A program made the position numbers and the translations under genes. A stretch of 64,000 nt of DNA from Streptomyces sp. NBC_01210. GTDB lineage: Bacteria > Actinomycetota > Actinomycetes > Streptomycetales > Streptomycetaceae. The notes beneath the pieces were generated by a model. The model saw only the letters and a list, made by a program, of their open reading frames with translations, did no database searches and was not told the DNA's origin. Below are positions 2,750-28,889 of the stretch, in pieces; positions within the stretch are counted from its first letter, which is position 1, and each line of letters opens with the position of its first letter. Where the stretch lies: the NCBI RefSeq assembly GCF_036010325.1, contig NZ_CP108549.1, positions 5,828,001 through 5,892,000 on the forward strand. The letters run 5' to 3'.

Positions 2750-2778
2750 TCCTCTTTCGCATCCCTCTCTCCATCCCT

Positions 2779-2790
2779 CTATGCGCGTAG
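2779..2790. promoter_or_regulatory. Nucleoside-regulon palindrome upstream of deoA
   Basis: CTATGCGCGTAG, one base from the perfect palindrome CTACGCGCGTAG found before add, deoC and pnp. The flanks extend the symmetry to 16 bases (2777-2792). It lies 38 bases before the deoA ATG, between the cdd terminator and the Shine-Dalgarno, where a repressor would block the promoter. The binding protein is not identified. Confidence 0.7.
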
Positions 2791-2828
2791 AGTCGCGCGT
2801 ACGCACTTCATTTGCCGGAAGGAATCCC

Positions 2829-4106
2829 ATGGACGCCATCTCCGTCATCCGCACCAAGCGGGACCGAGGCGAGCTGAGCCCCGAGCAGATCGACTGGGTC
2901 ATCGACGCCTACACGCGCGGTGAGGTCGCCGACGAGCAGATGTCGGCGCTGGCGATGGCCATCCTGCTGAACGGCATGAACCGTGCGGAGATCACCCGCT
3001 GGACGGCCGCGATGATCGCCTCCGGCGAGCGGATGAACTTCGACGCGCTGTCCCGGCCGACCGCCGACAAGCACTCCACGGGCGGCGTCGGCGACAAGAT
3101 CACGCTGCCGCTCGCGCCGCTGGTCGCCGCATGCGGCGCGGCCGTCCCGCAGCTGAGCGGCCGCGGTCTCGGCCACACCGGCGGCACGCTCGACAAGCTC
3201 GAGTCCATCCCCGGCTGGCGGGCGCTGCTCTCCAACGAGGAGATGCTGCACGTCCTCGACACGACCGGCGCGGTGATCTGTGCCGCGGGCGACGGCCTGG
3301 CCCCCGCGGACAAGAAGCTGTACGCCCTGCGGGATGTCACCGGCACAGTCGAGGCCATTCCGCTCATCGCCTCCTCGATCATGTCCAAGAAGATCGCCGA
3401 GGGCACCGGCTCGCTGGTCCTCGACGTCAAGGTGGGCACCGGCGCCTTTATGAAGACCATCGAGGACGCCCGCGAACTGGCCTCCACCATGGTCGCGCTG
3501 GGCAGCGACAGCGGCGTCAAGACCGTTGCGCTCCTCACCGACATGTCGACCCCGCTCGGCCTGACCGCGGGCAATGCCCTCGAGGTCCGCGAGTCCGTCG
3601 AGGTCCTCGCGGGCGGCGGCCCGCAGGACGTCATCGACCTCACCGTGGCCCTCGCCCAGGAGATGCTCGTCGCTGCCGGTATCAAGGACGCCGACCCCGC
3701 GAAGGCACTCGCCGACGGCTCCGCGATGGACGTCTGGCGCCGCATGATCGCCGCGCAGGGCGGTGACCCGGATGCCGAGCTCCCGGTAGCCCGCGAGCAG
3801 CACGTGATCACCGCCCCGTCGTCGGGTGTCCTCACCCGCCTCGACGCGTACGACGTCGGCGTCGCCGCCTGGCGTCTCGGCGCGGGCCGGGCCCGTAAGG
3901 AGGACCCGGTCCAGGCGGGCGCGGGCATCGAGATCCACGCCAAGCCCGGCGAGCCGGTGACCGCGGGCCAGCGACTGCTGACCCTGCACACGGACACCCC
4001 GGAGAAGTTCGAGTACGCCCTGAAGCCCCTGGAGGGCGCGTTCGACATCGCCCCGTCGAACACGGAGTTCACCCAGAACCCGATCGTGCTCGACCGCATC
4101 GCCTGA
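2829..4106 (+). CDS. deoA: Thymidine phosphorylase
   Basis: A 425-aa pyrimidine nucleoside phosphorylase that splits thymidine/deoxyuridine with phosphate to give the base and deoxyribose-1-phosphate. The family signature SGRGLGHTGGTLDKLE (about residues 112-127) and the phosphate-binding KHSTGGVGDK (about 80-89) are intact. The C-terminal PYNP domain with PVQAGAGIEIHAK is present. I chose ATG 2829 because GGAAGGAAT lies 5 bases upstream. An in-frame ATG at 2781 would sit inside the operator palindrome. The gene has its own operator and is closed by a hairpin at 4117-4146, so it is monocistronic. Confidence 0.96.
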   Translation: MDAISVIRTKRDRGELSPEQIDWVIDAYTRGEVADEQMSALAMAILLNGMNRAEITRWTAAMIASGERMNFDALSRPTADKHSTGGVGDKITLPLAPLVAACGAAVPQLSGRGLGHTGGTLDKLESIPGWRALLSNEEMLHVLDTTGAVICAAGDGLAPADKKLYALRDVTGTVEAIPLIASSIMSKKIAEGTGSLVLDVKVGTGAFMKTIEDARELASTMVALGSDSGVKTVALLTDMSTPLGLTAGNALEVRESVEVLAGGGPQDVIDLTVALAQEMLVAAGIKDADPAKALADGSAMDVWRRMIAAQGGDPDAELPVAREQHVITAPSSGVLTRLDAYDVGVAAWRLGAGRARKEDPVQAGAGIEIHAKPGEPVTAGQRLLTLHTDTPEKFEYALKPLEGAFDIAPSNTEFTQNPIVLDRIA

Positions 4107-4116
4107 CCCCACTCGT

Positions 4117-4146
4117 TCGGCGGGCCGATGAGAATCGGCCCGCCGA
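4117..4146 (+). terminator. Intrinsic terminator after deoA
   Basis: Perfect 13-base arms (TCGGCGGGCCGAT and its complement) around a GAGA loop, 11 bases after the deoA stop. Confidence 0.75.
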
Positions 4147-4200
4147 GCGGTCCACAGAGCAGGGCATATCCGCCACTGCGACGGGACGGGGACATGGGCC

Positions 4201-4551
4201 ATGGGCCGACGACCGGGTACCACGATGAGTTCTGGACGCCGGGGCAGTCTCCTCCGTGTGGACGCCACACAACCGATCATCCTGCGCATCGCGGGGAGAG
4301 TGTCTCCGGCCGATGTGCCGCGCCTGTGCGCGGAGTTGAGCGCGCGGCTCAGGGGCGCCGACGTCGCCGCCGAGGTCACCGAGGTGATCTGTGACCTCGG
4401 CGGGCTCACCCATCCCGATCTGGCCGCCGTCGATGCTGTGGCCCGGTTGCAGCTCACCGCCCGCCGGCTCGGCGGTCGGATACGGCTGCGCGATACCGGG
4501 CCGGAGCTGCGGGCCCTGCTCGATCTGGTGGGCCTCGGCGAGGTCGTCTAG
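4201..4551 (+). CDS. STAS-domain protein
   Basis: A 116-aa cytoplasmic protein that is almost entirely one STAS domain (anti-sigma factor antagonist fold). The stretch from IILRIAGRVSPADVPRL through EVICDLGGLTHPDLAAVDAVARLQL follows the beta-alpha pattern of the fold. The usual phosphorylatable Ser/Thr of SpoIIAA-type antagonists falls in the loop after CDLGGLTHPD, where Thr is the only candidate. This protein may therefore act by interaction rather than classic phosphorylation. Starts at ATG 4201 or ATG 4225 are both possible. It stands alone between deoA and a convergent ECF sigma gene, so any partner is unknown. Confidence 0.7.
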   Translation: MGRRPGTTMSSGRRGSLLRVDATQPIILRIAGRVSPADVPRLCAELSARLRGADVAAEVTEVICDLGGLTHPDLAAVDAVARLQLTARRLGGRIRLRDTGPELRALLDLVGLGEVV

Positions 4552-4584
4552 ATCTTGCGCTCGGACCCCGCGCTCCCGTGACGG

Positions 4585-5565
4585 TTACGCCTCCAGCCGG
4601 TCCGGCAGCTCGAAGAGCGGAAACCAGCGCTTGGTGTCCAGGAAGAAGTCCATCCCGCCGACCATGCCGTCCCTGACCTCCAGGACGATCAGGGCCCACG
4701 GCTCGTACCCGTCGCCCGTCCGGCTCGGGTGGTAGTGCGCGAACGCCGGAGAGCCGTTGGCCACGGTCGGGACCAGCTTCGAGCCCCGGCAGACCTCGCC
4801 GACACCGAGCATCCAGCCCACGATGTCGTCGTGGCCGCGCAGCCACAGGTCGTAGGGCGGCATGGACATGGTCGCGTCCTCGTGGAGCAGCGCCGTGAGC
4901 GCCTTCATGTCGTACCCCTCGAAGGCCGCGACATAGCGGTCGAGGAGCTTCTTCTGCTCTTCGTCGAGTGGGTCCGCCGCGTCCGCCGCGGCCGGCTCCG
5001 ATTCGGCGAGCGTCGCCCGCGCCCGCTGCAGCGCGCTGTTGACCGAGGCCACCGTCGTACTCAACAGCTCGGCCACCTCGCTCGCCTTCCACGCCAGCAC
5101 CTCGCGCAGGATCAGCACCGCTCGCTGCTTGGGCGGCAGATGCTGCAGCGCGGCGACGAACGCGAGCCGGATGCTCTCCCGCTCCACCGCGGTCTCGGCA
5201 GGGTCCGCCACGGACGGCAGCACCCGCCCGTCCGGCACCGGCTCCAGCCAGGTGATCTCCGGACGGGCGTTGAGCTGCGCCTGGGCCACGGGCGTAGCAG
5301 ACGTGAGGTCCATCGGCCGGGCCCGGCGGTTGCCCGCATTCAGCATGTCGAGGCAGACGTTCGTCGCGATGCGGTAGAGCCATGAGCGCAGCGAGGACCG
5401 CCCTTCGAACTTCTCGAAGCTCCGCCAGGCGCGGACCATCGTGTCCTGTACCGCGTCCTCCGCCTCGAAAGCGGAGCCCAGCATGCGGTAGCAGTAGCCG
5501 GTCAGCTCCCTGCGGTGCTGCTCCAGCCTGGATTCCAGGTCCTGTGTCGTTGCCAGATCACTCAT
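4585..5565 (-). CDS. ECF RNA polymerase sigma factor with SnoaL-like C-terminal domain
   Basis: A 326-aa group-IV sigma factor. Region 2 is recognisable from about residue 20 (LTGYCYRMLGSAFEAEDAVQ) to SSLRSWLYRIATNVCLD. Region 4 (LPPKQRAVLILREVLAWKAS) follows after an about 50-residue linker. The last about 120 residues (LDRYVAAFEGYDMKALTALL onward) form a SnoaL-like/NTF2 domain, a build known from SigG- and SigJ-like ECF groups lacking a classical anti-sigma factor. The extra domain is thought to control activity in such proteins. No anti-sigma gene is adjacent. ATG 5565 follows a GGGGTG motif at good spacing; GTG 5574 is the alternative. The target regulon is unknown. Confidence 0.88.
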   Translation of the reverse strand: MSDLATTQDLESRLEQHRRELTGYCYRMLGSAFEAEDAVQDTMVRAWRSFEKFEGRSSLRSWLYRIATNVCLDMLNAGNRRARPMDLTSATPVAQAQLNARPEITWLEPVPDGRVLPSVADPAETAVERESIRLAFVAALQHLPPKQRAVLILREVLAWKASEVAELLSTTVASVNSALQRARATLAESEPAAADAADPLDEEQKKLLDRYVAAFEGYDMKALTALLHEDATMSMPPYDLWLRGHDDIVGWMLGVGEVCRGSKLVPTVANGSPAFAHYHPSRTGDGYEPWALIVLEVRDGMVGGMDFFLDTKRWFPLFELPDRLEA

Positions 5566-5633
5566 CGGGTCCACCCCTGTCGCCCATTGGCCCCAGCTCT
5601 TCGGAACCTACAGGAGGGCACTGACAATGGAGC

Positions 5634-6350
5634 TCACGTTCCGGGCTTGCGCCCGTAGACGTACACGTCGTCGCCGTTCTTCAGAAGATTCCAGTATGCC
5701 TTCGCATCCGCGGGGCGCATGTTGACGCAGCCCCCGGAGCCGGGCGGGTTGTACATCGACTTCGTCGTGGAGTGGAAGGCCTGTCCGCCGTCGAAGAACT
5801 GCGAGTACGGCATCCATACGTCGTAGAGCGTCGACCAGTGTCTGATGCTCCGCTGGTAGATCTTCTTCGAGCCGGTACGGGTCTCGGTGCCGTTCTTGCC
5901 CGTGCGCACCGGCACCGGGCCGTACTTCAGCTTCTTGCCGTCCTGGATCCAGGTCAGCTGGCGAGTGAGGTCCACGCAGGCGATACGGCCCTTGTTGGTC
6001 GGGCACCTGCCCGCCTTGTTCGGGGTCTTTCCGGCCGCCCGCTGCTGGAGGATCGTGTTCATGGTGCGCCAGGTGATCTCGCCCGCGTACCCGATGGTCG
6101 GCTTGATGCCGTGCCAGCCCTGGAAGGTCCGGATCGCCTTGCAGTCGGCCGCCGACTGCTTCCCGTCCACCGGGCGGCCCAGGAACTTCTCCACCTGCTT
6201 CTGGTACGGGCCCGTGGACGTCGTGCACGACGCCGCCTGCGCGGGCGCGCTGCCCAGTGCCATGGTCAGCGGAACCACCAGTCCGGTCAGACCGAGCACG
6301 ACGCCTGCTCGTCTGCGGTGTGTACCCCTCGTCATGCCCCTCACAGCCAC
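5634..6350 (-). CDS. Secreted L,D-transpeptidase with peptidoglycan-binding domain
   Basis: A 238-aa exported protein. An Arg-rich n-region, a hydrophobic core (VVLGLTGLVVPLTMALG) and an APAQAA-type cleavage region form a signal peptide. Residues after this give a PG_binding_1-like module (KFLGRPVDGKQSAADCKAIRT). The YkuD domain then carries the catalytic motif SGGCVNM and an upstream AFHSTTKSMYNPPG, so the active-site Cys and His are present. It should form 3-3 cross-links or anchor proteins in the wall. GTG 6350 has GGAGGGGAG 5 bases upstream; ATG 6335 is an alternative. A second, lipoprotein-type L,D-transpeptidase occurs at 47459. Confidence 0.88.
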   Translation of the reverse strand: MAVRGMTRGTHRRRAGVVLGLTGLVVPLTMALGSAPAQAASCTTSTGPYQKQVEKFLGRPVDGKQSAADCKAIRTFQGWHGIKPTIGYAGEITWRTMNTILQQRAAGKTPNKAGRCPTNKGRIACVDLTRQLTWIQDGKKLKYGPVPVRTGKNGTETRTGSKKIYQRSIRHWSTLYDVWMPYSQFFDGGQAFHSTTKSMYNPPGSGGCVNMRPADAKAYWNLLKNGDDVYVYGRKPGT

Positions 6351-6441
6351 CAACTCCCCTCCGTGCACAGCGCAGTTGCGATATGCCTGCCCGTTGGACG
6401 CACGCCGGGGAGTTGGAGTTGTGCGGATTTCTGTGTTTATT

Positions 6442-7725
6442 TCAGCGCTGGGCCGCAGCGAGCACCAGCCGGTGCTCGGCCCGCGCCACCCGGGTGCCGT
6501 ACAGCGTGATCGATACGACGCCGAGGACCGCGAGCAGCCCCAGCAGCACCGTGCCCGCCCAGCCGCCGGAGTGGAAGGCGACCGCGCCGAGCGTGCCGCC
6601 CGCGCTGCTGCCCAGGTAGTACGCGGACTGGTAGAGCGCCGATGCCTGAGCGCGGCCCGTCTTCGCCGTACGGCTCACCGAGGACGAGGCGACCGCGTGG
6701 CCCGCGAAGAAGCCCGCGGTGATCAGGACCAGGCCGAGCAGCACGGCGGGCAGCGAGTCCGCCAGCGAGAGCAGCAGCCCCGCGGTGGTGGTGGTGACCG
6801 CCAGGTAGAGCGCGCCACGGCGGCCGAGCCGGGCGACGAGCTTTCCGGCCGCGGCGGAGGAGACCGTACCGACCAGATAGACCAGGAAGATCGAACCGAT
6901 GACGCCCTGGGGGAGGTTGAAGGGCGCCTCGACCAGGCGGTAGCCGATCACCGTGTAGACCGCGCCGAAGACGGTCATGAACAGCGCGCCGATCGCGTAC
7001 AGCCGCAGCAGCAACGGGTCGGCCAGATGGCCGCGGACCGTCTTCGCCAGGGCGCGCGGGTTGAGCGAACCGGGCGTGAAATTACGGGCCTTGGGGAGCA
7101 TGGCGCGGAAGACCAGCGCGCACACCAACGCCAGCACGCCGACCGCGGCGAGCGCCGCACGCCAGCCCCACAGCTGTGCCACCCAGCCGGTGACGATCCG
7201 GCCGCTCATACCGCCGATGCTGTTGCCCGCCACGAACAGGCCGATCGCGGCGACCAGCGCCTTGGGCCGTACCTCCTCGGCGAGATACGCCATCGCCGAC
7301 GCCGGCAGACCGGCGAGCGCCGCACCCTGCACGGCGCGCAGCGCCACCAGCCACTCCAGGCTCGGCGCGAACGGCACGAGCAGCCCGACCACGACGGCGA
7401 CCGCGAGGGACGCGGTCATCACGGTGCGCCGCCCGAAGCGCTCCGAGAGGGCGCTCATCGGCAGTACGCACAGGGCCAGCGCGCCCGTCGCGGCGGAGAC
7501 CGTCCAGCTGGCTGCGCTCGCGCTCACGCGGAAGCCGGCGGAGACGGCGGGCAGCAGCGCCTGCGTGGAGTAGAGGAGGGCGAAGGTGGCCACACCGGCG
7601 GCGAAGAGCGCGAAGCTCATGCGGCGGTAGCCGGGACCGCCGGGGGCGAGGAGCGCGGGGGAGGGCGAAGGGGACGGCGAGGCGGCGCCCACGGTGGTGG
7701 GCGCCTTGGTACTGGCAGGAGGCAT
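6442..7725 (-). CDS. MFS transporter, YnfM-like
   Basis: A 427-aa major facilitator with about twelve hydrophobic segments. The motif-A stretch ALSERFGRRTVM lies in the loop after the second segment of the first half. The N-terminal 30 residues are a Ser/Pro-rich cytoplasmic tail. It resembles the YnfM/AraJ-type drug-efflux branch, but no substrate can be read from the sequence. It is transcribed divergently from a LysR regulator with only 62 bases between the start codons, so the LysR protein very likely controls it. No clear Shine-Dalgarno precedes the ATG, and the leader is probably very short. Confidence 0.88.
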   Translation of the reverse strand: MPPASTKAPTTVGAASPSPSPSPALLAPGGPGYRRMSFALFAAGVATFALLYSTQALLPAVSAGFRVSASAASWTVSAATGALALCVLPMSALSERFGRRTVMTASLAVAVVVGLLVPFAPSLEWLVALRAVQGAALAGLPASAMAYLAEEVRPKALVAAIGLFVAGNSIGGMSGRIVTGWVAQLWGWRAALAAVGVLALVCALVFRAMLPKARNFTPGSLNPRALAKTVRGHLADPLLLRLYAIGALFMTVFGAVYTVIGYRLVEAPFNLPQGVIGSIFLVYLVGTVSSAAAGKLVARLGRRGALYLAVTTTTAGLLLSLADSLPAVLLGLVLITAGFFAGHAVASSSVSRTAKTGRAQASALYQSAYYLGSSAGGTLGAVAFHSGGWAGTVLLGLLAVLGVVSITLYGTRVARAEHRLVLAAAQR

Positions 7726-7730
7726 GCGTC

Positions 7731-7750
7731 AAAAGTAGGCCGCCACTTTT
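7731..7750. promoter_or_regulatory. Inverted repeat in the MFS/LysR divergent promoter
   Basis: AAAAGT-N8-ACTTTT, an exact 6-base inverted repeat and the only AT-rich dyad in the 62-base gap. It is the likely LysR binding element for the divergent pair, although it does not have the textbook T-N11-A spacing. Confidence 0.45.
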
Positions 7751-7787
7751 CATGCGTCCAATGCATGGAATCGCAATAATCGTTCCC

Positions 7788-8750: not shown

Positions 8751-8936
8751 GGGTCACATCGGCTGAAGGGCACCATTCGGAAGGGCAGCCCGCCGGCGCT
8801 CGTCGTGACGGTGGTGTCCGGCTGCTACCAGGTCCCGGACGGCCGGACGGTCAAGCACTACTGAGTACGGGGGGCCGTACGTCCTGAGTACCGGCCCGGA
8901 TACGGCAGCGCGGCAGCCAGAGGTTGGATCAAGGCC

Positions 8937-9290
8937 ATGAACCCGACTCCGCCCCCACTCGTTGCGCAGCCCACCACGGCCACACCCCCCGACATCCGCA
9001 GATGGTCCCTGAACTCCGCCGTCCTGCTGATCCCGGCCGTGCTCATGGCCGGAATTCTCGCCCTGTCCACCGAGCACGGATCGAGGTGCCTGACCTACGG
9101 CGGTGACGGCTGCTCCCCCTGGCCCGCGGGCACCTTCTCGTGGACGCTGAGCGGCGTGGTCCTGGCCTTTGTGGTGACCATGGCCATTCCCGCACGTATG
9201 CGACGGGCCCACGAGCTGCGTACGGCCGCCTTCGCCGTGCAGGCCCTGCTGGAAGCCTTCGCGGTGATCGTGGCGCTCAGCTTCCCCTGA
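8937..9290 (+). CDS. Small integral membrane protein
   Basis: A 117-aa protein with three predicted membrane helices (about residues 28-45, 70-90 and 95-115) and two Cys (CLTYGGDGC) in the first extracytoplasmic loop that could form a disulfide. No family was recognised. The start follows GGATCAAGG at good spacing. It ends 8 bases before the convergent hydrolase stop. The function is unknown. Confidence 0.7.
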   Translation: MNPTPPPLVAQPTTATPPDIRRWSLNSAVLLIPAVLMAGILALSTEHGSRCLTYGGDGCSPWPAGTFSWTLSGVVLAFVVTMAIPARMRRAHELRTAAFAVQALLEAFAVIVALSFP

Positions 9291-9298
9291 CCCCGGGC

Positions 9299-10159: not shown

Positions 10160-10246
10160 GGCAGAACAGTCTCAGAAGGGCAGGTGTACTCCACCCGTCC
10201 GCATGGTCACTGTTATGTATCGACGGGCGAAGTTGAGGGGCGCTCT

Positions 10247-10258
10247 CTACGCGCGTAG
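10247..10258. promoter_or_regulatory. Nucleoside-regulon palindrome upstream of add
   Basis: A perfect copy of CTACGCGCGTAG, ending 16 bases before the add ATG. At this position it would overlap the transcription start or ribosome-binding region, consistent with repression by roadblock. Confidence 0.75.
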
Positions 10259-10274
10259 GGCGTAGAGTGCGCAG

Positions 10275-11429
10275 ATGACGAGCCAGACCCTCAATACGCC
10301 CTCCGCGGACCAGATCCGCCGCGCTCCGAAGGTGCTCCTCCACGACCACCTCGACGGCGGGCTGCGACCGGGCACGATCATCGAACTCGCCCGCGAGACG
10401 GGCTATGACGCGCTCCCCGAGACCGAGCCCGACAAGCTCGGCATCTGGTTCCACGAGGCGGCCGACTCCGGCTCGCTGGAGCGCTATCTGGAGACCTTCG
10501 CGCACACCTGCGCCGTCATGCAGACCCGCGAGGCGCTCTTCCGCGTCGCCGCCGAGTGCGCCGAGGACCTCGCCGAGGACGGAGTCGTCTACGCCGAGGT
10601 CAGGTATGCCCCCGAGCAGCACCTCGAAGCCGGCCTGAGCCTCGAAGAAGTCGTCGAGGCGGTCAACGCGGGCTTCCGGGAGGGGGAACGGCTGGCCCGC
10701 GAGAGCGGCCACCGTATCCGTGTCGGCGCCATGCTCACCGCGATGCGGCACGCCGCCCGCGCCCTGGAGATCGCCGAACTGGCGAATCGCTACCGCGACA
10801 TGGGCGTCGTCGGCTTCGACATCGCCGGCGCCGAAGCGGGCTTCCCGCCCACCCGCCACCTCGACGCCTTCGAGTATCTGAAGAGGGAGAACAACCACTT
10901 CACGATTCACGCGGGCGAAGCCTTCGGGCTGCCGTCGATCTGGCAGGCGCTCCAGTGGTGCGGCGCCGACCGGCTCGGGCACGGTGTGCGGATCATCGAC
11001 GACATCACGGTCGCCGATGACGGCAGCGTGAAGCTCGGGCGGCTCGCCGCGTACGTACGGGACAAGCGCATCCCGCTGGAGCTGTGCCCGACGTCCAACC
11101 TGCAGACCGGCGCGGCCGCTTCGTACGCCGAACACCCCATCGGCCTGCTGCGCAGGCTGCACTTCAGGGCCACGGTCAACACCGACAACCGCCTGATGAG
11201 CGGTACGAGCATGAGCCGCGAATTCGAGCTGCTGACCGAGACCTTCGGATACACCCTCGACGACATGCAGTGGTTCACCGTCAATGCGATGAAGTCGGCG
11301 TTCATTCCTTTCGATGAACGACTGGCGATGATCAGCGATGTGATCAAGCCCGGATACGCCGAGTTGAAATCCGAATGGCTGTTCCGGCAGACCGCCACGA
11401 CCAGCCATTCTTCCGTCGGTGAGAGCTGA
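10275..11429 (+). CDS. add: Adenosine deaminase
   Basis: A 384-aa metal-dependent adenosine deaminase that converts adenosine/deoxyadenosine to inosine/deoxyinosine for the purine nucleoside phosphorylase at 28022. The zinc His pair is in LLHDHLDGG (about residues 22-30). The third His and catalytic Glu are in HAGEAFG (about 214), the catalytic His in DRLGHG (about 238), and the zinc Asp region is VNTDNRLMS (about 315). All are intact and the length matches Streptomyces members. Only a weak Shine-Dalgarno precedes the ATG. The operator palindrome is immediately upstream and a hairpin terminator follows. Confidence 0.96.
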
Positions 11430-11445
11430 TCGCGACACCTATGTC

Positions 11446-11952: not shown

Positions 11953-11975
11953 CGTACACCGGTTCCGTACACAAG

Positions 11976-20221: not shown

Positions 20222-20235
20222 GTCGAGGCCGGCCG

Positions 20236-20310: not shown

Positions 20311-20312
20311 AG

Positions 20313-20348: not shown

Positions 20349-20367
20349 GGCCATGGGAGGGGTCGGG

Positions 20368-21255
20368 TCAGTACGCCGAACCGGACGCGCCGAGCGAGCC
20401 CGTCGGGTGCCAGACCGTCTTCGTCTCCAGGAAGGCCGTCAGCCGGTGCGTGCCCGGATCGGCCGAGAAATCCACAGGCTGTGGACGGAGAACGCGCTTG
20501 AGGTTGTCCGCCGCCGCGATCTCCAGCTCCTTCGCGAGGACTTCACCGGCCCCGGTCAGGTCGATCGCGTTGACGTCCTGGTGCGCGGCGAGCGGGGTCG
20601 CGATCTCCTCGGTCCGCCCGGAGAGGACGTTGACCACGCCGCCCGGGAGGTCCGAAGTGGCCAGCACCTCGCCGAGCGAGAGCGCGGGGAGCGGGGCCTT
20701 CTCGCTCGCCACCACGATCGCGGTGTTGCCCGTCGCGATCACCGGGGCGACCACCGAGACCAGGCCCAGGAAGGACGACTCCTGCGGCGCGAGGATGGTC
20801 ACGACGCCCGTCGGCTCCGGCGTCGAGAGGTTGAAGAACGGGCCGGCGACCGGGTTCGCCCCGCCCACGATCTGGCCGATCTTGTCCGTCCAGCCCGCGT
20901 ACCAGACCCAGCGGTCGATCGCCGCGTCGACGACGGCCGCGGCCTTGGACTTGGACAGGCCCTCGGCGGCCGCGACCTCGGCGGTGAACTGCTCGCGCCG
21001 GCCCTCCAGCATCTCCGCGATGCGGTAGAGGATCTGGCCCCGGTTGTACGCGGTCGCGCCCGACCAGCCGCCGAACGCCTTGCGGGCCGCGACGACCGCG
21101 TCACGCGCGTCCTTGCGGGACGAGAGAGGCGCGTTGGCCAGCCACTTGCCCTTGGAGTCCGTCACCTCGTACACCCGGCCGCTCTCGCTCCGGGGGAACT
21201 TGCCCCCGACGTACAGCTTGTAGGTCTTGAAGACGCTCAGTCGCCCGTCAGACAT
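20368..21255 (-). CDS. Aldehyde-dehydrogenase-family protein lacking the catalytic region
   Basis: A 295-aa protein homologous to the N-terminal, NAD-binding part of aldehyde dehydrogenases (KLYVGGKFPRSESGR near residue 12; PEPTGVVTILAPQ; the nucleotide-binding VIATGNTAIVVASE). Full-length enzymes have about 480 residues. The catalytic Cys and the general-base Glu of LELGGK are both absent, and the usual FTGS loop reads LTGAGE. Its ATG overlaps the stop of the complete ALDH by 8 bases, so the two are co-translated. It may be a non-catalytic subunit. The order deoC-ALDH-short ALDH is, from memory, the same in other streptomycetes, which argues against recent decay. Confidence 0.85.
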   Translation of the reverse strand: MSDGRLSVFKTYKLYVGGKFPRSESGRVYEVTDSKGKWLANAPLSSRKDARDAVVAARKAFGGWSGATAYNRGQILYRIAEMLEGRREQFTAEVAAAEGLSKSKAAAVVDAAIDRWVWYAGWTDKIGQIVGGANPVAGPFFNLSTPEPTGVVTILAPQESSFLGLVSVVAPVIATGNTAIVVASEKAPLPALSLGEVLATSDLPGGVVNVLSGRTEEIATPLAAHQDVNAIDLTGAGEVLAKELEIAAADNLKRVLRPQPVDFSADPGTHRLTAFLETKTVWHPTGSLGASGSAY

Positions 21256-22693
21256 CGAGGTAGGCCTCCAGACCGTGACGGCCGCCCTCGCGGCCGAAGC
21301 CCGACTCCTTGTAACCGCCGAACGGCGAGGTCGGGTCGAACTTGTTGAAGGTGTTGGCCCACACCACACCCGCGCGGAGCTTGCTCGCCACCGCCAGGAT
21401 GCGGGAGCCCTTCTCCGTCCAGATGCCGGCCGACAGGCCGTACTGGCTGTTGTTGGCCTTGGCGACCGCCTCGTCCGGCGTACGGAACGACAGCACGGAC
21501 AGCACCGGGCCGAAGATCTCGTCGCGCGCGATCGTGTGCGCCTGTGTGACGCCGGTGAAGAGCGTCGGAGCGAACCAGTAGCCGGAGCTCGGCAGCTCGC
21601 AGGGCGCGGACCAGCGCTCGGCGCCCTCCGCCTCGCCCTTCTCGGTCAGCGCCGTGATCCGGGCCAGCTGCTCCGCGGAGTTGATCGCCCCGATGTCGGT
21701 GTTCTTGTCCAGCGGGTCGCCGAGGCGCAGCGTGGACAGTCGGCGCTTGAGGGAGTCGAGCAGCTCGTCCTGGATCGACTCCTGGACCAGCAGGCGCGAG
21801 CCCGCGCAGCAGACCTGGCCCTGGTTGAAGAAGATGCCGCCGACGATGCCCTCGACGGCCTGGTCGATCGGGGCGTCGTCGAAGACGATGTTCGCGCCCT
21901 TGCCGCCCAGCTCCAGCGTGACCTTCTTGTCGGTGCCGGCGATCTGGCGGGCGATCGCCTTGCCGACGGCGGTCGAGCCGGTGAAGGCGACCTTGTTGAC
22001 GTCGGGGTGCGCGACGAGCGCGGCGCCCGTCTCTCCGTAACCCGGAAGGATGTTGACGACACCCTTCGGCAGGCCCGCCTGGCGGCAGATGTCCGCGAAG
22101 AAGAGGGCGGAGAGAGGGGTCGTCTCGGCGGGCTTCAGGACGACCGTGTTGCCCGCCGCGAGCGCCGGGGCGATCTTCCACGCGAGCATGAGGAGCGGGA
22201 AGTTCCAGGGGATGACCTGGCCCGCGACGCCGAGCGGCTGCGGGTTCGCGCCGTAGCCGGCGTGGCCGAGTTTGTCCGCCCAGCCCGCGTAGTAGAAGAA
22301 GTGCGCGGCGACCAGCGGCAGGTCCGCGTCGCGGGTCTCCTTGATCGGCTTGCCGTTGTCGAGCGTCTCCAGGACGGCCAGCTCGCGCGAGCGCTCCTGG
22401 ATGATCCGCGCGATACGGAACAGGTACTTGGACCGCTCCGAGCCGGGCAGCGCCGACCACTTCTCGAACGCCTTGCGGGCCGCCTTCACGGCGCGGTCCA
22501 CGTCCTCGGCGCCGGCCCGGGCGACCTCGGCGAGCACCTCCTCGGTGCTCGGCGAGACGGTCTTGAAGACCTTGCCGTCCGCGGCGTCGGTGAACTCGCC
22601 GTCGATGAAGAGGCCGTACGACGGTGCGATGTCGACGATCGACCGCGACTCGGGCGCGGGGGCGTACTCAAAAATCTGCTTGTCCATGGTCAT
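21248..22693 (-). CDS. Aldehyde dehydrogenase (deoxyribose pathway)
   Basis: A 481-aa NAD(P)-dependent aldehyde dehydrogenase. PWNFPLLMLAWKIAPALAAG, the cofactor loop FTGSTAVGK, the Glu in TLELGGKGANIV and the catalytic Cys in FFNQGQVCCAGSR are all present. Directly downstream of deoC, it most likely oxidises the acetaldehyde released from deoxyribose-5-phosphate to acetate. That substrate is inferred from the operon. The start is ATG 22693 or 22687, 6 or more bases after the deoC stop, and the 3' end overlaps the next gene by 8 bases. Confidence 0.93.
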   Translation of the reverse strand: MTMDKQIFEYAPAPESRSIVDIAPSYGLFIDGEFTDAADGKVFKTVSPSTEEVLAEVARAGAEDVDRAVKAARKAFEKWSALPGSERSKYLFRIARIIQERSRELAVLETLDNGKPIKETRDADLPLVAAHFFYYAGWADKLGHAGYGANPQPLGVAGQVIPWNFPLLMLAWKIAPALAAGNTVVLKPAETTPLSALFFADICRQAGLPKGVVNILPGYGETGAALVAHPDVNKVAFTGSTAVGKAIARQIAGTDKKVTLELGGKGANIVFDDAPIDQAVEGIVGGIFFNQGQVCCAGSRLLVQESIQDELLDSLKRRLSTLRLGDPLDKNTDIGAINSAEQLARITALTEKGEAEGAERWSAPCELPSSGYWFAPTLFTGVTQAHTIARDEIFGPVLSVLSFRTPDEAVAKANNSQYGLSAGIWTEKGSRILAVASKLRAGVVWANTFNKFDPTSPFGGYKESGFGREGGRHGLEAYLDV

Positions 22694-22699
22694 GGGGTC

Positions 22700-23647
22700 T
22701 CAGTCCACCGTCACGTAGTCGGGGCCGGAGTAGCGGCCGGTGGCCAGCTTCTGACGCTGCATCAGCAGGTCGTTGAGCAGGCTCGAGGCGCCGAAGCGGA
22801 ACCAGTGGTTGTCCAGCCAGTCCGCACCGGCGGTCTCGTTGACCAGCACCAGGAACTTGATCGCGTCCTTGCTGGTACGGATGCCGCCCGCAGGCTTCAC
22901 GCCGACCTGTACCCCAGTCTGCTCCCGGAAGTCGCGCACGGCCTCCAGCATCAGCAGGGTGTTCGCCGGGGTGGCGTTCACCGCCACCTTGCCGGTCGAG
23001 GTCTTGATGAAGTCCGCGCCGGCGATCATGCCGAGCCAGGAGGCGCGGCGGATGTTGTCGTACGTGGAGAGCTCGCCGGTCTCGAAGATGACCTTCAGCC
23101 GGGCGGCGCCCGCGGCCTCCTTCACGGCGAGGATCTCCTCGTAGACCTTCAGATAGCGGCCGGAGAGGAAGGCTCCCCGGTCGATCACCATGTCGATCTC
23201 GTCGGCTCCGGCGGCGACGGCGTCACGGGTGTCCGCGAGCTTCACGTCGAGCGCGGCGCGGCCGGCCGGGAAGGCGGTGGCGACGGAGGCGACCTTGACG
23301 CCGGAGCCCCGCAGGGCCTCCTTGGCGATGGCTGCCATATCGGGATAGACGCAGACCGCGGCGGTCGTCGGGGTCGTACGGTCGGTGGGGTCGGGATGGA
23401 CGGCCTTGGCGGCGAGCGACCGGACCTTGCCCGGGGTGTCCGCACCCTCGAGCGTCGTCAGGTCGATCATCGAGATGGCCAGGTCAATGGCGAACGCCTT
23501 GGCCGTGGCCTTGATCGAACGCGTGCCGAGCCCTGCGGCGCGGGCCTCCAGGCCGACGGCGTCGACGCCGGGCAGGCCATGGAGGAAGCGGCGCAGTGTG
23601 CTGTCGGACGCGGTCACGTCAGCGAATGCGGGTGGGGTGGTGGGCAT
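22700..23647 (-). CDS. deoC: Deoxyribose-phosphate aldolase
   Basis: A 315-aa class I aldolase that cleaves deoxyribose-5-phosphate to acetaldehyde and glyceraldehyde-3-phosphate. The Schiff-base Lys is in ADFIKTSTGKV and the second active-site Lys in GVKPAGGIRT. An N-terminal extension of about 55 residues makes it longer than E. coli DeoC (259 aa). ATG 23647 is chosen because further upstream the frame would run through the operator palindrome 19 bases before this start. It leads the deoC-ALDH-ALDH operon and receives substrate from deoA, pnp and the mutase. Confidence 0.96.
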   Translation of the reverse strand: MPTTPPAFADVTASDSTLRRFLHGLPGVDAVGLEARAAGLGTRSIKATAKAFAIDLAISMIDLTTLEGADTPGKVRSLAAKAVHPDPTDRTTPTTAAVCVYPDMAAIAKEALRGSGVKVASVATAFPAGRAALDVKLADTRDAVAAGADEIDMVIDRGAFLSGRYLKVYEEILAVKEAAGAARLKVIFETGELSTYDNIRRASWLGMIAGADFIKTSTGKVAVNATPANTLLMLEAVRDFREQTGVQVGVKPAGGIRTSKDAIKFLVLVNETAGADWLDNHWFRFGASSLLNDLLMQRQKLATGRYSGPDYVTVD

Positions 23648-23666
23648 GGTCACCAGATGAGCATAT

Positions 23667-23678
23667 CTACGCGCGTAG
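23667..23678. promoter_or_regulatory. Nucleoside-regulon palindrome upstream of deoC
   Basis: A perfect copy of CTACGCGCGTAG, 19 bases upstream of the deoC ATG on the minus strand. Confidence 0.75.
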
Positions 23679-23805
23679 CGACCTGTACAGGGGGCCAGGT
23701 CAGCGGCCGCTCGACGGTGGCTTCGCGGCGGGCACGACCCGTACGGGAAGTGTGGCACGACCCGTACCGGAAGTGCCGCCGCAGGCGTACGGCAGAATCG
23801 GAGAC

Positions 23806-24441
23806 ATGAGCAGCCCGCAGCAGCCCGCCGAGCCCACGTACGCCGACCGGGTCTTCCGGTCGCCCGCCGGTATGGGGGGCGGGGTGTTGCTGCTCGCGCT
23901 CATCGCCTGGATCACCGTGGACGCGCTCATCCGCGGCGAGGGCCGGACGCCGTGGCTCGCGCTCGCCGGTGCGCTGCTGGCGGTGCCGCTCATCGTCGCG
24001 TTTACGCTGCGGCCCGCGGTCTTCGTCAACGAGGACCGGGTGCGCATCAGGAATCCGTTCCGGACGATCACCCTGCCGTGGGCGGCCGTCGCCGATGTGC
24101 GCGCCGGGTACTCCAGCGAGATCTTCACGCAGGAGGGTACGAAGTACCAGCTCTGGGCCATCCCCGTCTCGCTGCGCCAGCGCAAGCGGGTCTCGCGCCG
24201 GCAGATGCAGAACGCCCACGACGATCCGCACGGCCGGACCTCCGTGTCGGCCGACGTCAACGACTCCCAGGCGCGGTTGGCTCCCGCCGACCGGACGGTC
24301 GCGGATCTGCGCGAGCTGGCCGAGCGCAATGCGTCGCGGCCGGGTGCGCAGGGCGAGCCGCAGGTCCGCTGGGCGTACGAGGCGGTGGCGCCGGCCGTGG
24401 CCGGGGCCGTGCTGCTCGCGGTGCTGCTGGCCATCGGCTGA
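23806..24441 (+). CDS. Membrane protein with bacterial PH-like domain
   Basis: A 211-aa membrane protein with two adjacent hydrophobic segments (about residues 24-42 and 48-66) and a cytosolic bPH-type domain (VFVNEDRVRIRNPFRTITLP, then WAAVADVRAGYSSEIFTQ). One more C-terminal helix (VAGAVLLAVLLAIG) follows. Such proteins are common in actinobacteria and mostly uncharacterised. It is divergent from the deoC operon, but its ATG lies 128 bases from the deoC operator. It is followed by short tandem 8-mers. Confidence 0.8.
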   Translation: MSSPQQPAEPTYADRVFRSPAGMGGGVLLLALIAWITVDALIRGEGRTPWLALAGALLAVPLIVAFTLRPAVFVNEDRVRIRNPFRTITLPWAAVADVRAGYSSEIFTQEGTKYQLWAIPVSLRQRKRVSRRQMQNAHDDPHGRTSVSADVNDSQARLAPADRTVADLRELAERNASRPGAQGEPQVRWAYEAVAPAVAGAVLLAVLLAIG

Positions 24442-24530
24442 GCCCCTGAAGCCCTGAAGCCCTGAAGCCCCGGAGCCCCGGAGCCCCGGAGCCCCTGAGG
24501 CCTCGAGGCCTCGAGGCCTCGTGCCCTGGG
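24442..24530. repeat. Tandem 8-mer microrepeats
   Basis: Three successive families of octamer repeats: AGCCCTGA (2-3 copies), AGCCCCGG (3 copies) and AGGCCTCG (3 copies). They lie between the PH-domain gene and the convergent membrane glycosyltransferase. No hairpin terminator of normal form is apparent. Confidence 0.75.
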
Positions 24531-24594
24531 CCCCAAGGTCACCCGAGGCCGCGCAGCGCCTCCGAGGCATCTGACGCACGGGTGACCCCGACGA

Positions 24595-25791
24595 TCAGGG
24601 CGGGCCCTTCCACACCAGCAGCATGTACGCCCCCAGCCACGCCGACGACAGCGTCGACGTGCCCAGCACCACCGCCACCACCGCTGTCCGCCGTGCCCTG
24701 GCCAGTGCCAGCGCGATCGGCAGCAGCAGCGGGAAGCCCGGCAGCAGAAAGCGGGTGCGCGGGAAGTAGACCCCACCGCTGCCCAGGACGACCAGCAGCA
24801 GCACGCCCGTGAAGACGAGCAGCGCCGTCGGCTGCCGGTCGGCCAGACAGAGCAGATACAGCCCGACCGACACGATCAGCATCAACGACACGATCACCAG
24901 AAAGAGCTGAGGACGCGTCATGTACACCAGGTACTGCCGCAGCCGCAGCAGCGTCGTCGCGCCGCCGTCCCACTCGTTGCGCCACAGCTTCTGTACGGCG
25001 AAGTAGCCGTCGGGCCGCCCCACGCGGAACCCCACCCACGCGACATACGCCAGCCACCCCAGCGGCGCGGCCAACGCCCCCACGAGCGCCCGCCGGTTCC
25101 CGCGGCAGGACGGCAGCAGCGCCGCCACCGACACGGCCGCCGCGACCGCGATGCCCGTAGGCCGGGTCAGCCCGGCGAGCGAGGCGAGCGAAGCCGCCCA
25201 CAGCCAGCGCCCGGTGAGCACCGCGTACAGCGCCCACGCCGCGAGCGCCGTGAACATCGACTCCGTGTAGCCCATCCACTGGACGATCGCTACGGGCAGC
25301 ACGCCCCACAGCACGGTGAGCACGGTGCCCGTCCGGCGCCCGTACAGCCGGTCGCCCACCGCGAAGATGCCCCACCCTGCGACGAACGAGAACACGACGG
25401 CGAGGACGAGTGCGACGGTGGCGCGCGAGCCGGGTGTGACACCGGCGACGGCCTTGATCAGGACCGGATAGAGCGGGAAGAAGGCCAGGTTGTTGGCGTT
25501 GAACTGGGTGCCGAGGGCGTCGGCGTACCCATGGTCGGCGATGCCCAGGTACCAGCCGGAGTCCCAGGACGTGGCGAGCGTCGGCCAGACACCGTGGTGC
25601 TTGAGATGCACCCACCTGGCGAGGACCAGAAGACCGCACAGCCGCACCGCGAGATAGCCGAGCAGCGCGGGCGCGGCCCGCCGCAGTGCGCGCCGCAGCC
25701 GGTTCCGTAAGCCAGTCGCGTCACCGCCTCCCGGGGCCGGTGGCCGGCGGGAGGCGGGGACGGTGGGCCGAACGGTCGCGGCGGGGGACAC
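24595..25791 (-). CDS. GT-C mannosyltransferase-like membrane protein
   Basis: A 398-aa polytopic membrane protein with about ten hydrophobic segments. SWDSGWYLGIADHGY in the first extracytoplasmic loop matches the acidic DxD-like motif of PIG-M/PIG-V-type mannosyltransferases that use lipid-linked mannose. GYTESMFTALAAWALY and the loop RFLLPGFPLLL are also typical. It probably transfers a sugar to a lipid, glycan or protein outside the membrane; the acceptor is unknown. A 150-base leader with no other gene separates it from the mutase gene. Confidence 0.82.
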   Translation of the reverse strand: MSPAATVRPTVPASRRPPAPGGGDATGLRNRLRRALRRAAPALLGYLAVRLCGLLVLARWVHLKHHGVWPTLATSWDSGWYLGIADHGYADALGTQFNANNLAFFPLYPVLIKAVAGVTPGSRATVALVLAVVFSFVAGWGIFAVGDRLYGRRTGTVLTVLWGVLPVAIVQWMGYTESMFTALAAWALYAVLTGRWLWAASLASLAGLTRPTGIAVAAAVSVAALLPSCRGNRRALVGALAAPLGWLAYVAWVGFRVGRPDGYFAVQKLWRNEWDGGATTLLRLRQYLVYMTRPQLFLVIVSLMLIVSVGLYLLCLADRQPTALLVFTGVLLLVVLGSGGVYFPRTRFLLPGFPLLLPIALALARARRTAVVAVVLGTSTLSSAWLGAYMLLVWKGPP

Positions 25792-25959
25792 AGCGGCAGC
25801 TCCTGGAACTCGGTATGCGCTACCGGGTCACCATTTCCCGGAGGGTCCCAGGGAGCGGGTGCCACTGCCTCGACTCCGTACGAGATTCACCCGTGCGGAC
25901 GGTCGAGGGCGGGCGTGCCGACGGTCGTACGGGCGGTCGTGCGGGCAGCCGGCCGACGG

Positions 25960-27624
25960 TCAGATCCCCGCGGCCGCTGCGAGATCCCGCTTGATCCCGG
26001 CGAGGACCTCCGCGGCCCGCTCCCGCGCGGTGACGAGCTCCGACGCGTCCGCGACCGGCACCACGACCTCCAGGTAGCACTTGAGCTTGGGCTCGGTGCC
26101 GCTCGGGCGGACGATGACGCGGGCCGTGAACTCGCCGTCGAGGTAGTAGCGCAGCCCGTCCGTGGGCGGCAACTTGTCCGTACCGCGGTTCAGGTCCTCG
26201 GCGGTGACGACCCGCAGCCCGGCGACCACGGCCGGCGGCTTCTCGCGCAGCGTCCGCATCGCGTTCGCGATGATGCTCAGGTCCTCGACCCGCACCGACA
26301 GCTGGTCGGTGGCGTGCAGACCGTGCTCGACGGCGAGGTCGTCGAGCAGGTCGGTGAGCGTACGGTCCTGCTCCTTCAGCTCCGAGGCCAGCTCGGCGAC
26401 GAGCAGCGCGGCGGTGATGCCGTCCTTGTCGCGTACGCCTTCGGGGTCGACGCAGTAGCCGAGCGCCTCCTCGTAGCCGTACCGCAGACCGTCCACGCGG
26501 GCGATCCACTTGAAGCCGGTCAGCGTCTCCTCGTACGGCAGCCCCGCGGCCTCCGCGATCCGTCCCAGCAGGGACGAGGACACGATCGACTCGGCGAAGG
26601 CGCTGTCCTTGTCCCGCGGAGACACTCCCTTGTGGACGAGGTGCGCGCCGAGCAGCGCGCCGACCTCGTCGCCGCGGAGCATGCGCCAGCCGCCGGGCGC
26701 GGCGTCGTCGGGAACGGCGACGGCGCACCGGTCCGCGTCGGGGTCGTTGGCGATGACGATGTCCGGCCGGTCCCGGCGCGCGGTCTCGAAGGCGAGATCC
26801 ATCGCCCCCGGCTCCTCCGGATTGGGGAACGCGACGGTCGGGAAGGCCGGGTCGGGCTCGGCCTGCTCCTGTACGAGGGTGGGCGCGGGGAAGCCCGCGC
26901 GGTCGAAGGCGGCGGTCAGTACGTCCTTGCCGACGCCGTGCATGGCCGTGTAGACGACGCGGGCGGTGCGGGGGGAGCCGGCGGTGAAGATGGCGTCCGT
27001 ACGCGCCAGATAGGCGTCCAGGACCTCGTCGCCGAGGGTGTCCCAGCCGCTCTCGGCACGCGGCACGTCGTCGAGACTCGCCACGGCCGCGATCTCCGAG
27101 GCGATCTCCGCGTCGGCGGGCGGCACGATCTGGGAGCCGTCGCCGAGGTAGACCTTGTAGCCGTTGTCGCGCGGCGGGTTGTGGCTGGCGGTGACCTCGA
27201 CGCCGGCGACGGCGCCCAGCTGCCTTATGGCGAAGGCGAGTACGGGCGTCGGCAGCGGGCGCGGCAGCACGGCGGCGCGGAGACCGGCGCCGACCATGAC
27301 GGCGGCGGTGTCGCGCGCGAAGTCGGCGGACTTGTAACGGGCGTCGTATCCGATGACGACGAGCCCGTCACCCTGCCCCTTCGCTCTGAGATACGCGGCG
27401 AGCCCGGCGGCGGCCCGGATGACGACGGCCCGGTTCATCCGCATGGGCCCGGCCCCGAGCTCCCCGCGCAGCCCGGCCGTCCCGAACTGCAGCGTCCCGC
27501 TGAACCGCACGGCGAGCTCGTCGAGGTCCTGGGCCTCGATGAGCTTCCTGAGCTCGTCCCGGGTCTCACTGTCCGGGTCCTCCGCCAGCCACGCGCTGGC
27601 CCGCGCGATGAGGTCCTGCTGCAC
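25960..27624 (-). CDS. Phospho-sugar mutase (PGM2-like, probable phosphopentomutase)
   Basis: A 554-aa alpha-D-phosphohexomutase superfamily enzyme. The catalytic phosphoserine loop is TASHNPPRDNGYKVY (about residues 130-145), the metal-binding loop is DPDADRC, and the C-terminal phosphate-binding motif RPSGTEPK is present. The length and loop sequence match the PGM2-type subfamily, which includes phosphopentomutases. No deoB-type phosphopentomutase is visible here. The gene follows pnp on the same strand, so conversion of (deoxy)ribose-1-phosphate to the 5-phosphate is the likely role. Phosphomannomutase is the usual database name. GTG 27624 has GAGAGGCGG upstream. Confidence 0.88.
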   Translation of the reverse strand: MQQDLIARASAWLAEDPDSETRDELRKLIEAQDLDELAVRFSGTLQFGTAGLRGELGAGPMRMNRAVVIRAAAGLAAYLRAKGQGDGLVVIGYDARYKSADFARDTAAVMVGAGLRAAVLPRPLPTPVLAFAIRQLGAVAGVEVTASHNPPRDNGYKVYLGDGSQIVPPADAEIASEIAAVASLDDVPRAESGWDTLGDEVLDAYLARTDAIFTAGSPRTARVVYTAMHGVGKDVLTAAFDRAGFPAPTLVQEQAEPDPAFPTVAFPNPEEPGAMDLAFETARRDRPDIVIANDPDADRCAVAVPDDAAPGGWRMLRGDEVGALLGAHLVHKGVSPRDKDSAFAESIVSSSLLGRIAEAAGLPYEETLTGFKWIARVDGLRYGYEEALGYCVDPEGVRDKDGITAALLVAELASELKEQDRTLTDLLDDLAVEHGLHATDQLSVRVEDLSIIANAMRTLREKPPAVVAGLRVVTAEDLNRGTDKLPPTDGLRYYLDGEFTARVIVRPSGTEPKLKCYLEVVVPVADASELVTARERAAEVLAGIKRDLAAAAGI

Positions 27625-28021
27625 GGTTGGTCCGCCTCTCGTGTGTAATCCGTCGCCCCATTGTTTCGGGGGGCCGCCCCCGCCCCCTGCGGCGCCGCAG
27701 CGGCGTGGGGCTGTCCTGTACCCGCGATCCACGGCACCGAAGCGGCACGGTTCCCCCATGCGGGAGCACGGGAGCATCCGCGCGCGCCTGGGCGGGCCGG
27801 CCGGTTCGGGGGACGTGGGTTCCGGAGAACCCTGCCCTGCGGCCCGTAGCCGCCCTGCCGATGCCGTGGTCGTTGTCCGGCCCGCCGGCCACGATCCGCG
27901 CCTTGTCGCGTGAAGCAGCCCCCGCCGACACGCCGCGCGAAGCCGCCGGGGCGTCCGCGTCGTCCGGGGGCGTGGGAGTGTCCCGCCCACCCGCACATCA
28001 GGCGGGCAGGCGCCTCTCCGC
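27625..28021. other. 397-bp intergenic region, no gene seen
   Basis: GC-rich sequence between pnp and the mutase gene, both minus strand. Several open frames exist but all are arginine/proline-rich with poor third-position bias. No nucleoside palindrome or convincing terminator was found. It may be a long leader for the mutase gene. Confidence 0.5.
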
Positions 28022-28852
28022 TCAGATGCGGTCGAGCACCCGGGTCAGCAGCTCGCCCATCCGCGCCGCCGAGTCCCGGCCCGCCTGGAGTACTTCCTCG
28101 TGGTTCAGCGGCTCGCCCGTCAAGCCCGCCGCCAGGTTCGTGACCAGCGAGATGCCGAGCACCTCCGCGCCCGCCTCGCGCGCCGCGATCGCCTCGAGGA
28201 CCGTCGACATGCCGACCAGGTCACCGCCGAGCACGCGGACCATGTTGATCTCCGCCGGCGTCTCGTAGTGCGGGCCGGGGAACTGGACGTAGACGCCCTC
28301 CTCCAGGGAGGCGTCGACCTCCTTGCACAGCGCCCGCAGCCGCGGCGAGTACAGGTCCGTCAGGTCCACGAAGTTCGCGCCGATGATCGGCGACGTCGCC
28401 GTCAGGTTGATGTGGTCACTGATCAGCACCGGCTGGCCGGGGCGCATGCCCTCGCGCAGGCCGCCGCAGCCGTTCGTCAGGATGACCGTCTTGCAGCCCG
28501 CTGCCACCGCCGTACGCACTCCGTGCGCCACCGCCGCGACCCCGCGGCCCTCGTAGTAGTGGGTCCGGCCGAGGAAGACCAGCGCCCGCTTCTCGCCGAT
28601 CCTGTACGAACGGATCTTGCCGCCGTGGCCCTCGACCGCCGGCGGCGGGAAGCCGGGCAGTTCGGTGACCGGGAATTCGGCCTCGGGCGCGCCGAGGGCG
28701 TCAACGGCCGGCGCCCAGCCGGAGCCCATCACCAGGGCTACGTCGTGCGTCTCGGCGCCGGTCAGCTCGCGCAGCCGCGCGGCGGCTGCGTCGGCTGCGG
28801 CATGGGGGTCGGCGGTAGCGCCGTTGAGGTCCGGATTCACAGATGCGTTCAC
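28022..28852 (-). CDS. Purine nucleoside phosphorylase
   Basis: A 276-aa trimeric-type purine nucleoside phosphorylase, which splits inosine and guanosine (and deoxy forms) to base plus (deoxy)ribose-1-phosphate. The phosphate loop VMGSGWAP, the active-site His loop GRTHYYEG, the ribose/purine loop GPHYETPAE and the purine site [10 protein letters not shown] are all present. The GTG at 28852 lies 25 bases after the operator palindrome. Together with add it takes adenosine to hypoxanthine, and the sugar phosphate goes to the mutase encoded downstream. Confidence 0.95.
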
Positions 28853-28877
28853 GCCGACGAGGGTAGCCGGTCATTCC

Positions 28878-28889
28878 CTACGCGCGTAG
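28878..28889. promoter_or_regulatory. Nucleoside-regulon palindrome upstream of pnp
   Basis: A perfect copy of CTACGCGCGTAG, 25 bases before the GTG start on the minus strand. Confidence 0.75.

Follow-up and report, generated by a model that had tools for sequence, protein, structure and literature searches.

The window analysed here is a stretch of 64,000 nucleotides (nt) from Streptomyces sp. NBC_01210 (contig NZ_CP108549.1, positions 5,828,001 to 5,892,000), in which genes for the breakdown of nucleosides are preceded by copies of one palindromic element. The initial annotation had described this element as the 12-mer CTACGCGCGTAG, with exact copies before add, deoC and pnp and a one-mismatch copy before deoA. 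A pattern search reproduced these coordinates, with the exact 12-mer at 10247, 23667 and 28878 and the variant CTATGCGCGTAG at 2779. No further copy could be identified in the window, as had been noted by eye; the one other match with up to two mismatches lies at 5286 and carries two. The copies of the 12-mer are real, but judged by the flanking bases the element is larger and extends over 14 bp. Its natural reading is a palindromic operator, TCTACGCGCGTAGA, which would be used in submaximal forms. Sites matching 13 of these 14 positions are called 13/14 sites below. The following features are found in the window:

1..1065, + strand: ABC permease of the bmp operon, which has its operator at genome position 5826271, 1.7 kb upstream of the window
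1065..2327, + strand: second ABC permease of the bmp operon, a role read from its position and its relatives
2324..2716, + strand: cdd, cytidine deaminase (curated profile NF004064)
2778..2791, + strand: operator TCTATGCGCGTAGA (13/14) before deoA, by pattern match and flank reading
2829..4106, + strand: deoA, thymidine phosphorylase (curated profile NF004490)
10246..10259, + strand: operator TCTACGCGCGTAGG (13/14) before add; its core ends 16 nt from the ATG at 10275
10275..11429, + strand: add, adenosine deaminase (curated profile NF006847)
21248..22693, - strand: aldehyde dehydrogenase, directly after deoC, by profile and position
22700..23653, - strand: deoC, deoxyribose-phosphate aldolase (TIGR00126); start GTG at 23653, 6 nt past a TATGCT box
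23666..23679, - strand: operator GCTACGCGCGTAGA (13/14, as read on the - strand) before deoC, by pattern match and flank reading
28022..28852, - strand: pnp, purine nucleoside phosphorylase (curated profile TIGR01698)
28877..28890, - strand: operator TCTACGCGCGTAGG (13/14, as read on the - strand) before pnp, by pattern match and flank reading
31229..32185, + strand: candidate DeoR-family regulator, by domain and profile matches; its own promoter has no operator copy

A permease-like gene precedes cdd-deoA in many other families too, and the aldehyde dehydrogenase gene is probably on the same transcript as deoC. The distance of 16-38 nt from site to start codon given in the initial annotation holds for add (16 nt), pnp (25 nt) and deoA (38 nt), but not for deoC, where a start at the conserved GTG (23653) would give 13 nt. 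In its longest open frame, deoC would cover the operator; the conserved start leaves the operator outside the gene.

Using Markov models of order 1-3 trained on the window, 0.002-0.003 exact 12-mers are expected per 64 kb and 0.3-0.5 per genome, and the probability of at least three exact copies in the window is about 1e-9 to 6e-9. The 9.2 Mb genome contains four exact 12-mers, compared with none of a reversed control pattern. All four are located within 30.6 kb, one in the bmp operon and the others before add, deoC and pnp. The copy at the bmp operon, which had been suggested in the initial annotation, sits between the Bmp lipoprotein gene and the ABC ATPase gene. None of the four (0/4) lies within a gene, given the conserved deoC start; genes outside Pfam and NCBIfam matches were called with a script based on the GC content at third codon positions.

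Another 19 cores in the genome have one mismatch. Exactly five of these are flanked by T on the left and A on the right (T..A), and all five are intergenic, preceding deoA, a pyrimidine-degradation operon, gntR-add3 with a transporter gene, an NCS2 permease gene and purS. None of the remaining 14 has T..A flanks, and 10/14 are intragenic by the gene calls. Nine 13/14 sites are thus observed in the genome versus 0.6-1.3 expected, and 9/9 precede genes concerned with nucleosides or nucleobases (bmp-ABC, deoA, add, deoC, pnp, pyrimidine degradation, gntR-add3, NCS2 and purS). Each of the nine departs from the palindrome at one place, and the perfect 14-bp form has no copy in the whole genome.

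The pyrimidine-base degradation operon encodes an amidase, an aminotransferase, a dihydropyrimidinase and an NCS1 permease. Its first enzyme has N-carbamoylputrescine amidase as best profile, below the cut-off, and with dihydropyrimidinase, aminotransferase and NCS1 permease as neighbours it is a putative beta-ureidopropionase. The operator of this operon was found again in 4/4 other Streptomyces loci read (L083, L085, L087 and L089), which were fetched by motif search. The NCS2 permease is of the xanthine/uracil type. For the transporter encoded opposite gntR-add3, the best curated match is the uridine transporter UriT (295 bits, cut-off 600). The GntR regulator, the third adenosine deaminase and this UriT-like transporter are encoded on an accessory nucleoside island (G000:C1:7548391-7551966, G000 being the genome of the window; L075:5391-8966). 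In a stretch of 1.2 Mb read from a second genome (G019), purS and the NCS2 permease gene were located by homology, independently of the motif, and they carry the sole two 13/14 sites there; the first 0.4 Mb holds neither gene, both being in later stretches. The purS site departs at an identical position in both genomes, with T in G000 and C in G019 on the purS strand.

The initial annotation had made its reading depend on conservation of the 12-mer at these promoters in related species, and this was observed. The 12-mer was found in 37/37 genomes of the genus (G000 and 36 relatives; 3-6 copies each) and in 120/121 genomes of the family (17 genera; 1-6 copies, with two in one genome of the same genus). 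The exception, G354, has the variants CTACGCGAGTAG at deoC and CTACGCGCGTTA at pnp. Among other families of the order 3/15 genomes contain one copy each, two of the three being inside an open frame that resembles guaB by eye, and other genomes of the class contain none (0/9). Thirteen loci from seven other genera of the family were retrieved via the neighbouring DeoR gene and not via the motif; at readable promoters, a core with at most one mismatch was present for pnp in 12/13, for deoC in 10/10 and for add in 3/3. The deoC promoter with its site matches at least 120 stretches, and the 80 of them listed are Streptomyces or Streptomyces-like. In related genomes the operator is kept while its flanks diverge, with deoA as the exception.

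The flanking bases and the core complement each other. With identical contexts counted once, and the rows for add2 and for a lysozyme gene discussed below excluded, 41 distinct contexts have a perfect core; of these, 30 have T on the left only, nine have A on the right only, two have neither and none has both. One-mismatch cores occur in 28 distinct contexts, 20 with both flanks and eight with A alone (deoC of other genera). The excluded add2 contexts (three distinct, perfect core, G..A) obey the same rule. Each promoter could be followed separately: add has a perfect core with T on the left and a base other than A on the right in all 15 distinct contexts with a site, and pnp has the same arrangement in 19/19 readable named Streptomyces loci. 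For deoC the left base is not T in 71/71 readable loci of other Streptomyces, using a query that fixed the core and the right side and left this base free; these deoC and pnp counts come from 80 examined loci out of 120. At pnp of two other genera (g119 and g122), decay of the core to CTACGCGCATAG goes together with T..A flanks, a compensation. Over all retrieved loci 228 distinct 13/14 sites were collected, a set biased by how the loci were fetched, and none of them is perfect; a search with the 14-mer in 296 genomes of the class, including 28 of the genus, gave no match. The single departure per site in G000 and the absence of a perfect site among those seen suggest an affinity tuned below the maximum.

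Since orthologous sites are not independent of one another, the flank counts were not turned into a probability. Some sites are shared between the gntR and MFS rows, and loci fetched twice recur in the locus table. A site with at most one core mismatch was lacking in 9/26 loci for add, 3/15 for bmp, 1/27 for pnp, 8/14 for gntR, 2/7 for MFS, 6/29 for GH25, 1/3 for deoA and 1/2 for pydB; these loci include paralogues and cut-off loci, not all of which were inspected singly.

At three promoters the position of the operator could be read. In add, the operator is followed by 4 nt, TAGAGT, 6 nt and ATG; in deoC by 1 nt, TATGCT, 6 nt and GTG; and in pnp by 12 nt, TACCCT, 7 nt and GTG, the latter two layouts being the consensus of 71 loci for deoC and 19 for pnp. 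The three transcripts look leaderless, with the operator in the core promoter. Such a position would also be expected if the 12-mer were part of a promoter for a special sigma factor. However, the element is palindromic, and its distance to the presumed -10 box varies from 1 to 12 nt with no fixed register. Therefore it is not regarded as a sigma-factor element, an explanation that we consider highly improbable. The location in the core promoter, combined with the varying distance to the presumed -10 box, makes a repressor operator most likely, and occlusion of RNA polymerase would be its simplest action.

Expression data for a relative are in line with joint control. For Streptomyces lividans, the RNA sequencing results in the passages concerned of PMC6302529 give log2 changes of 3.70 for SCO4917 (pnp), 3.24 for SCO4914 (deoC) and 2.16 for SCO4901 (add). 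The strain described there overproduces a secreted enzyme, and its DNA-repair genes were induced. The main text of the same paper contains neither SCO4888 and SCO4890, sought for the transporter and deoA, nor 6415. In the part of PMC7157823 that reports chromatin immunoprecipitation of WblC, the SCO4914 promoter is among the WblC-repressed ones, which may be an additional input.

Combining the genome scan, the conservation with diverging flanks, the new members (two of which held in G019) and the co-expression of pnp, deoC and add, the shared operator of the nucleoside-catabolism units proposed in the initial annotation is upheld. Very probably the nine units form a regulon under one dimeric regulator acting via TCTACGCGCGTAGA, most likely a repressor. 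Repression, an inducer and the protein are what we infer from these observations. In the Streptomyces family, one DNA-binding dimer would control how purine and pyrimidine nucleosides and bases are taken up, deaminated, cleaved by phosphorolysis and degraded. Bound over the -35 and -10 boxes or in the space between them, it would block RNA polymerase, and its release may be triggered by a nucleoside or by one of the breakdown products (base or pentose phosphate). The nine scattered units would then open together when nucleic-acid material is available. The regulator gene would be located elsewhere, or would not be autoregulated through the operator.

Several observations weigh against this regulon. 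In the genome, 12-mers with at most one mismatch are rarer than the reversed control (23 versus 38 per strand), and since they are no commoner than this control, one-mismatch 12-mers are uninformative without the flanking bases. The deoA site is present in 2/4 Streptomyces, with an identical variant in G089 and none before deoA of G107 and G013, and the deoC sites of other genera are mostly 12/14 (eight distinct contexts). At bmp, neither flank is right in 2/8 contexts. Some genomes also have exact 12-mers upstream of genes of unrelated function or within them. A lysozyme gene, for which no nucleoside role is known, is preceded by a conserved 12/14 form with at most one core mismatch in 23/29 loci; the 16 distinct contexts of this form with a one-mismatch core break the trade-off between core and flanks (14 T..C, one T..A and one T..G). 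The promoter anatomy covers add, deoC and pnp, three of the nine units, with -10 boxes presumed from sequence and not from mapped transcripts. The RNA sequencing data come from a strain under stress from protein overproduction, in which the operator sites are presumed. The frequency of one-mismatch 12-mers taken alone would fit chance, or the shared ancestry of non-functional DNA. Against such an origin stand the nine of nine 13/14 sites at related promoters, where about one was expected, their retention while flanks diverge, and the recovery of two sites in the second genome from gene position, and we consider it practically negligible. One dimeric regulator acting through TCTACGCGCGTAGA remains our preferred explanation.

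The site at the lysozyme gene (TCTACGTGCGTAGC, G000:C1:6302791; L018, L146 and relatives L142-L170) precedes a gene for a secreted GH25 lysozyme, next to which a MarR gene is transcribed divergently, and it seems to travel with the lysozyme gene. The MarR protein was considered as the regulator and rejected: its promoter is conserved without the site, which follows the lysozyme gene. Some further sites were noticed in other genomes. Two 13/14 operators, 23 bp apart, precede the gene of a secreted protein that belongs to no clear Pfam family (L059, G011:C19:45649), a possible extra member. A 13/14 site precedes a gene for a HAD/Cof-type phosphatase (L062, G024:C12:190543), whose neighbours also flank the pyrimidine-degradation operon in G000. 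In L055, L060 and L061 (G007, G026 and G033), a 13/14 operator covers codons 3-7 of the frame of a second adenosine deaminase paralogue.

The initial annotation had called the regulator not obvious, and none emerged from the site neighbourhoods searched. It had also proposed a search for a regulator gene carrying the operator. One regulator gene with a site in its promoter encodes the GntR protein of the accessory island (gene 7549541, site at genome position 7550410). Its divergent promoter contains a 13/14 site, it forms an operon with an adenosine deaminase gene, and the UriT-like transporter is encoded across the promoter. The gene is present in 8/37 genomes of the genus versus 37/37 for the operator, and because of this the GntR protein cannot be the general regulator. 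In addition, only 5/8 of its loci (L099-L106) have the site, one with two core mismatches, and L104-L106 keep GntR without a site. This candidate is therefore very unlikely.

The DeoR-family protein encoded at 31229 is a doubtful candidate that has to be taken seriously; it would sense a pentose phosphate such as deoxyribose-5-phosphate. Its gene and the pnp operator are 2.3 kb apart, the protein has a clear DeoR C-terminal sensor domain, and a close orthologue was found in 36/37 genomes of the genus (the miss is a 79% complete genome) and in 121/121 of the family. Among 15 relatives in the order outside the family, ten have relatives of this protein with 38-41% identity and five have none at the threshold, which parallels the motif. 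However, a location near pnp is weak evidence in a syntenic genus. The best curated matches of the protein are below cut-off and closer to AgaR/GlpR than to DeoR, and base permease, pyrimidine-base degradation and purS release no pentose phosphate. The operator of Escherichia coli DeoR looks different from TCTACGCGCGTAGA, in a comparison by eye. The DeoR gene promoter is conserved across genera and the operator is absent from it, as the initial annotation had seen in describing a different palindrome there. Other elements in this promoter (window 31000-31229) are kept over genera, for example AACTTC...GCTGAAA and GTTAC.GTC, and probably represent a different operator.

We take SCO4920 to be the Streptomyces coelicolor counterpart of this DeoR gene. 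Under the name of a DeoR-family regulator, SCO4920 appears at the centre of a predicted module with bldN (PMC3224704) and in a table of glucose-responsive regulators (PMC4848846); the passages of these two papers on SCO4920 contain no link to nucleosides.

Alternatively, an unlinked LacI-family protein could tentatively be proposed. The 14-bp palindrome has a central CpG, as is common for operators of this family, and the pyrimidine-purine centre is kept in 9/9 sites of G000. The half-site CTACG, in contrast, is unlike the usual LacI half-site, which starts with TG. Among the 13 LacI genes of G000, 12 loci (3 kb) contain no match with up to two mismatches, and one has a match inside a neighbouring gene. 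The initial annotation had likened the operator to the LacI/GntR type: the central CG and the length of 14 bp do resemble LacI operators, but this remains a resemblance, and the adjacent GntR protein is the one rejected above. LacI-type regulators of nucleoside use are known, with UriR, AdeR and HpxR named in the passage concerned of PMC4052901. On the sequence evidence, the DeoR-family protein and an unlinked LacI-type protein would be the leading candidates at about equal odds, and other families may also be considered.

Other searches for a regulator gave no candidate. Among the loci fetched from related genomes for exact 12-mers beyond the cluster, no regulator gene had a site in its promoter. 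None of the genes behind 17 more G000 sites of the form TACGYRCGTA was recognised as a repressor gene, three of these sites having no gene call nearby; at one TACGYRCGTA site (L200) a response-regulator gene starts ∼80 bp downstream. In other families of the class, the surroundings of deoA were read at 26 loci, obtained for 40 non-Streptomyces genomes with a match, and no regulator was consistently adjacent.

The proposed regulon resembles the DeoR and CytR regulons of E. coli, in which scattered units for uptake and catabolism (deoC, deoA, cdd and transport) also have operators near their promoters. DeoR of E. coli, however, recognises another palindrome, of 16 bp, and CytR acts together with CRP, whereas the single operator found here also covers adenosine deaminase, pyrimidine-base degradation, the NCS2 permease and purS. 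PurR regulons likewise have a single operator for purine genes and for permeases of purines; here the genes are mostly catabolic or for salvage, and the purS unit is the sole member found for de novo purine synthesis. UriR, a LacI-family protein of Corynebacterium, is likewise an actinobacterial nucleoside regulator, and one unit here has a UriT-like transporter. In the passage concerned of PMC4052901, UriR is a local regulator of uridine use, compared with nine purine and pyrimidine units here and no LacI gene beside any of them. In the part of the open-access literature covered, no operator or regulator is described for Streptomyces nucleoside catabolism, RegPrecise and subscription journals being outside this scope, so that an earlier prediction there is possible; the 12-mer strings occurred in that literature only in papers with unrelated titles.

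The kind of system is familiar; its scope and the graded, never-perfect operators make it worth further study. Judging the flanks of the core motif let a clean regulon emerge from a 12-mer scan that was otherwise uninformative, and this regulon provides an operator that can be used to fish out the protein, a sharp target list, and naturally graded operators on which affinity tuning can be measured. Members of Streptomyces reuse the material of their own lysed hyphae and feed on nucleic acids in the soil. On balance, it seems somewhat more probable than the contrary that a single master regulator of the Streptomyces family couples purine and pyrimidine scavenging, the degradation of nucleosides and bases and one step of purine synthesis. 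The perfect 14-bp form would then never be used, each promoter would keep its own departure from it, a decayed core in other genera would be offset by a restored flank, as at pnp, and repression would be kept submaximal throughout the family.

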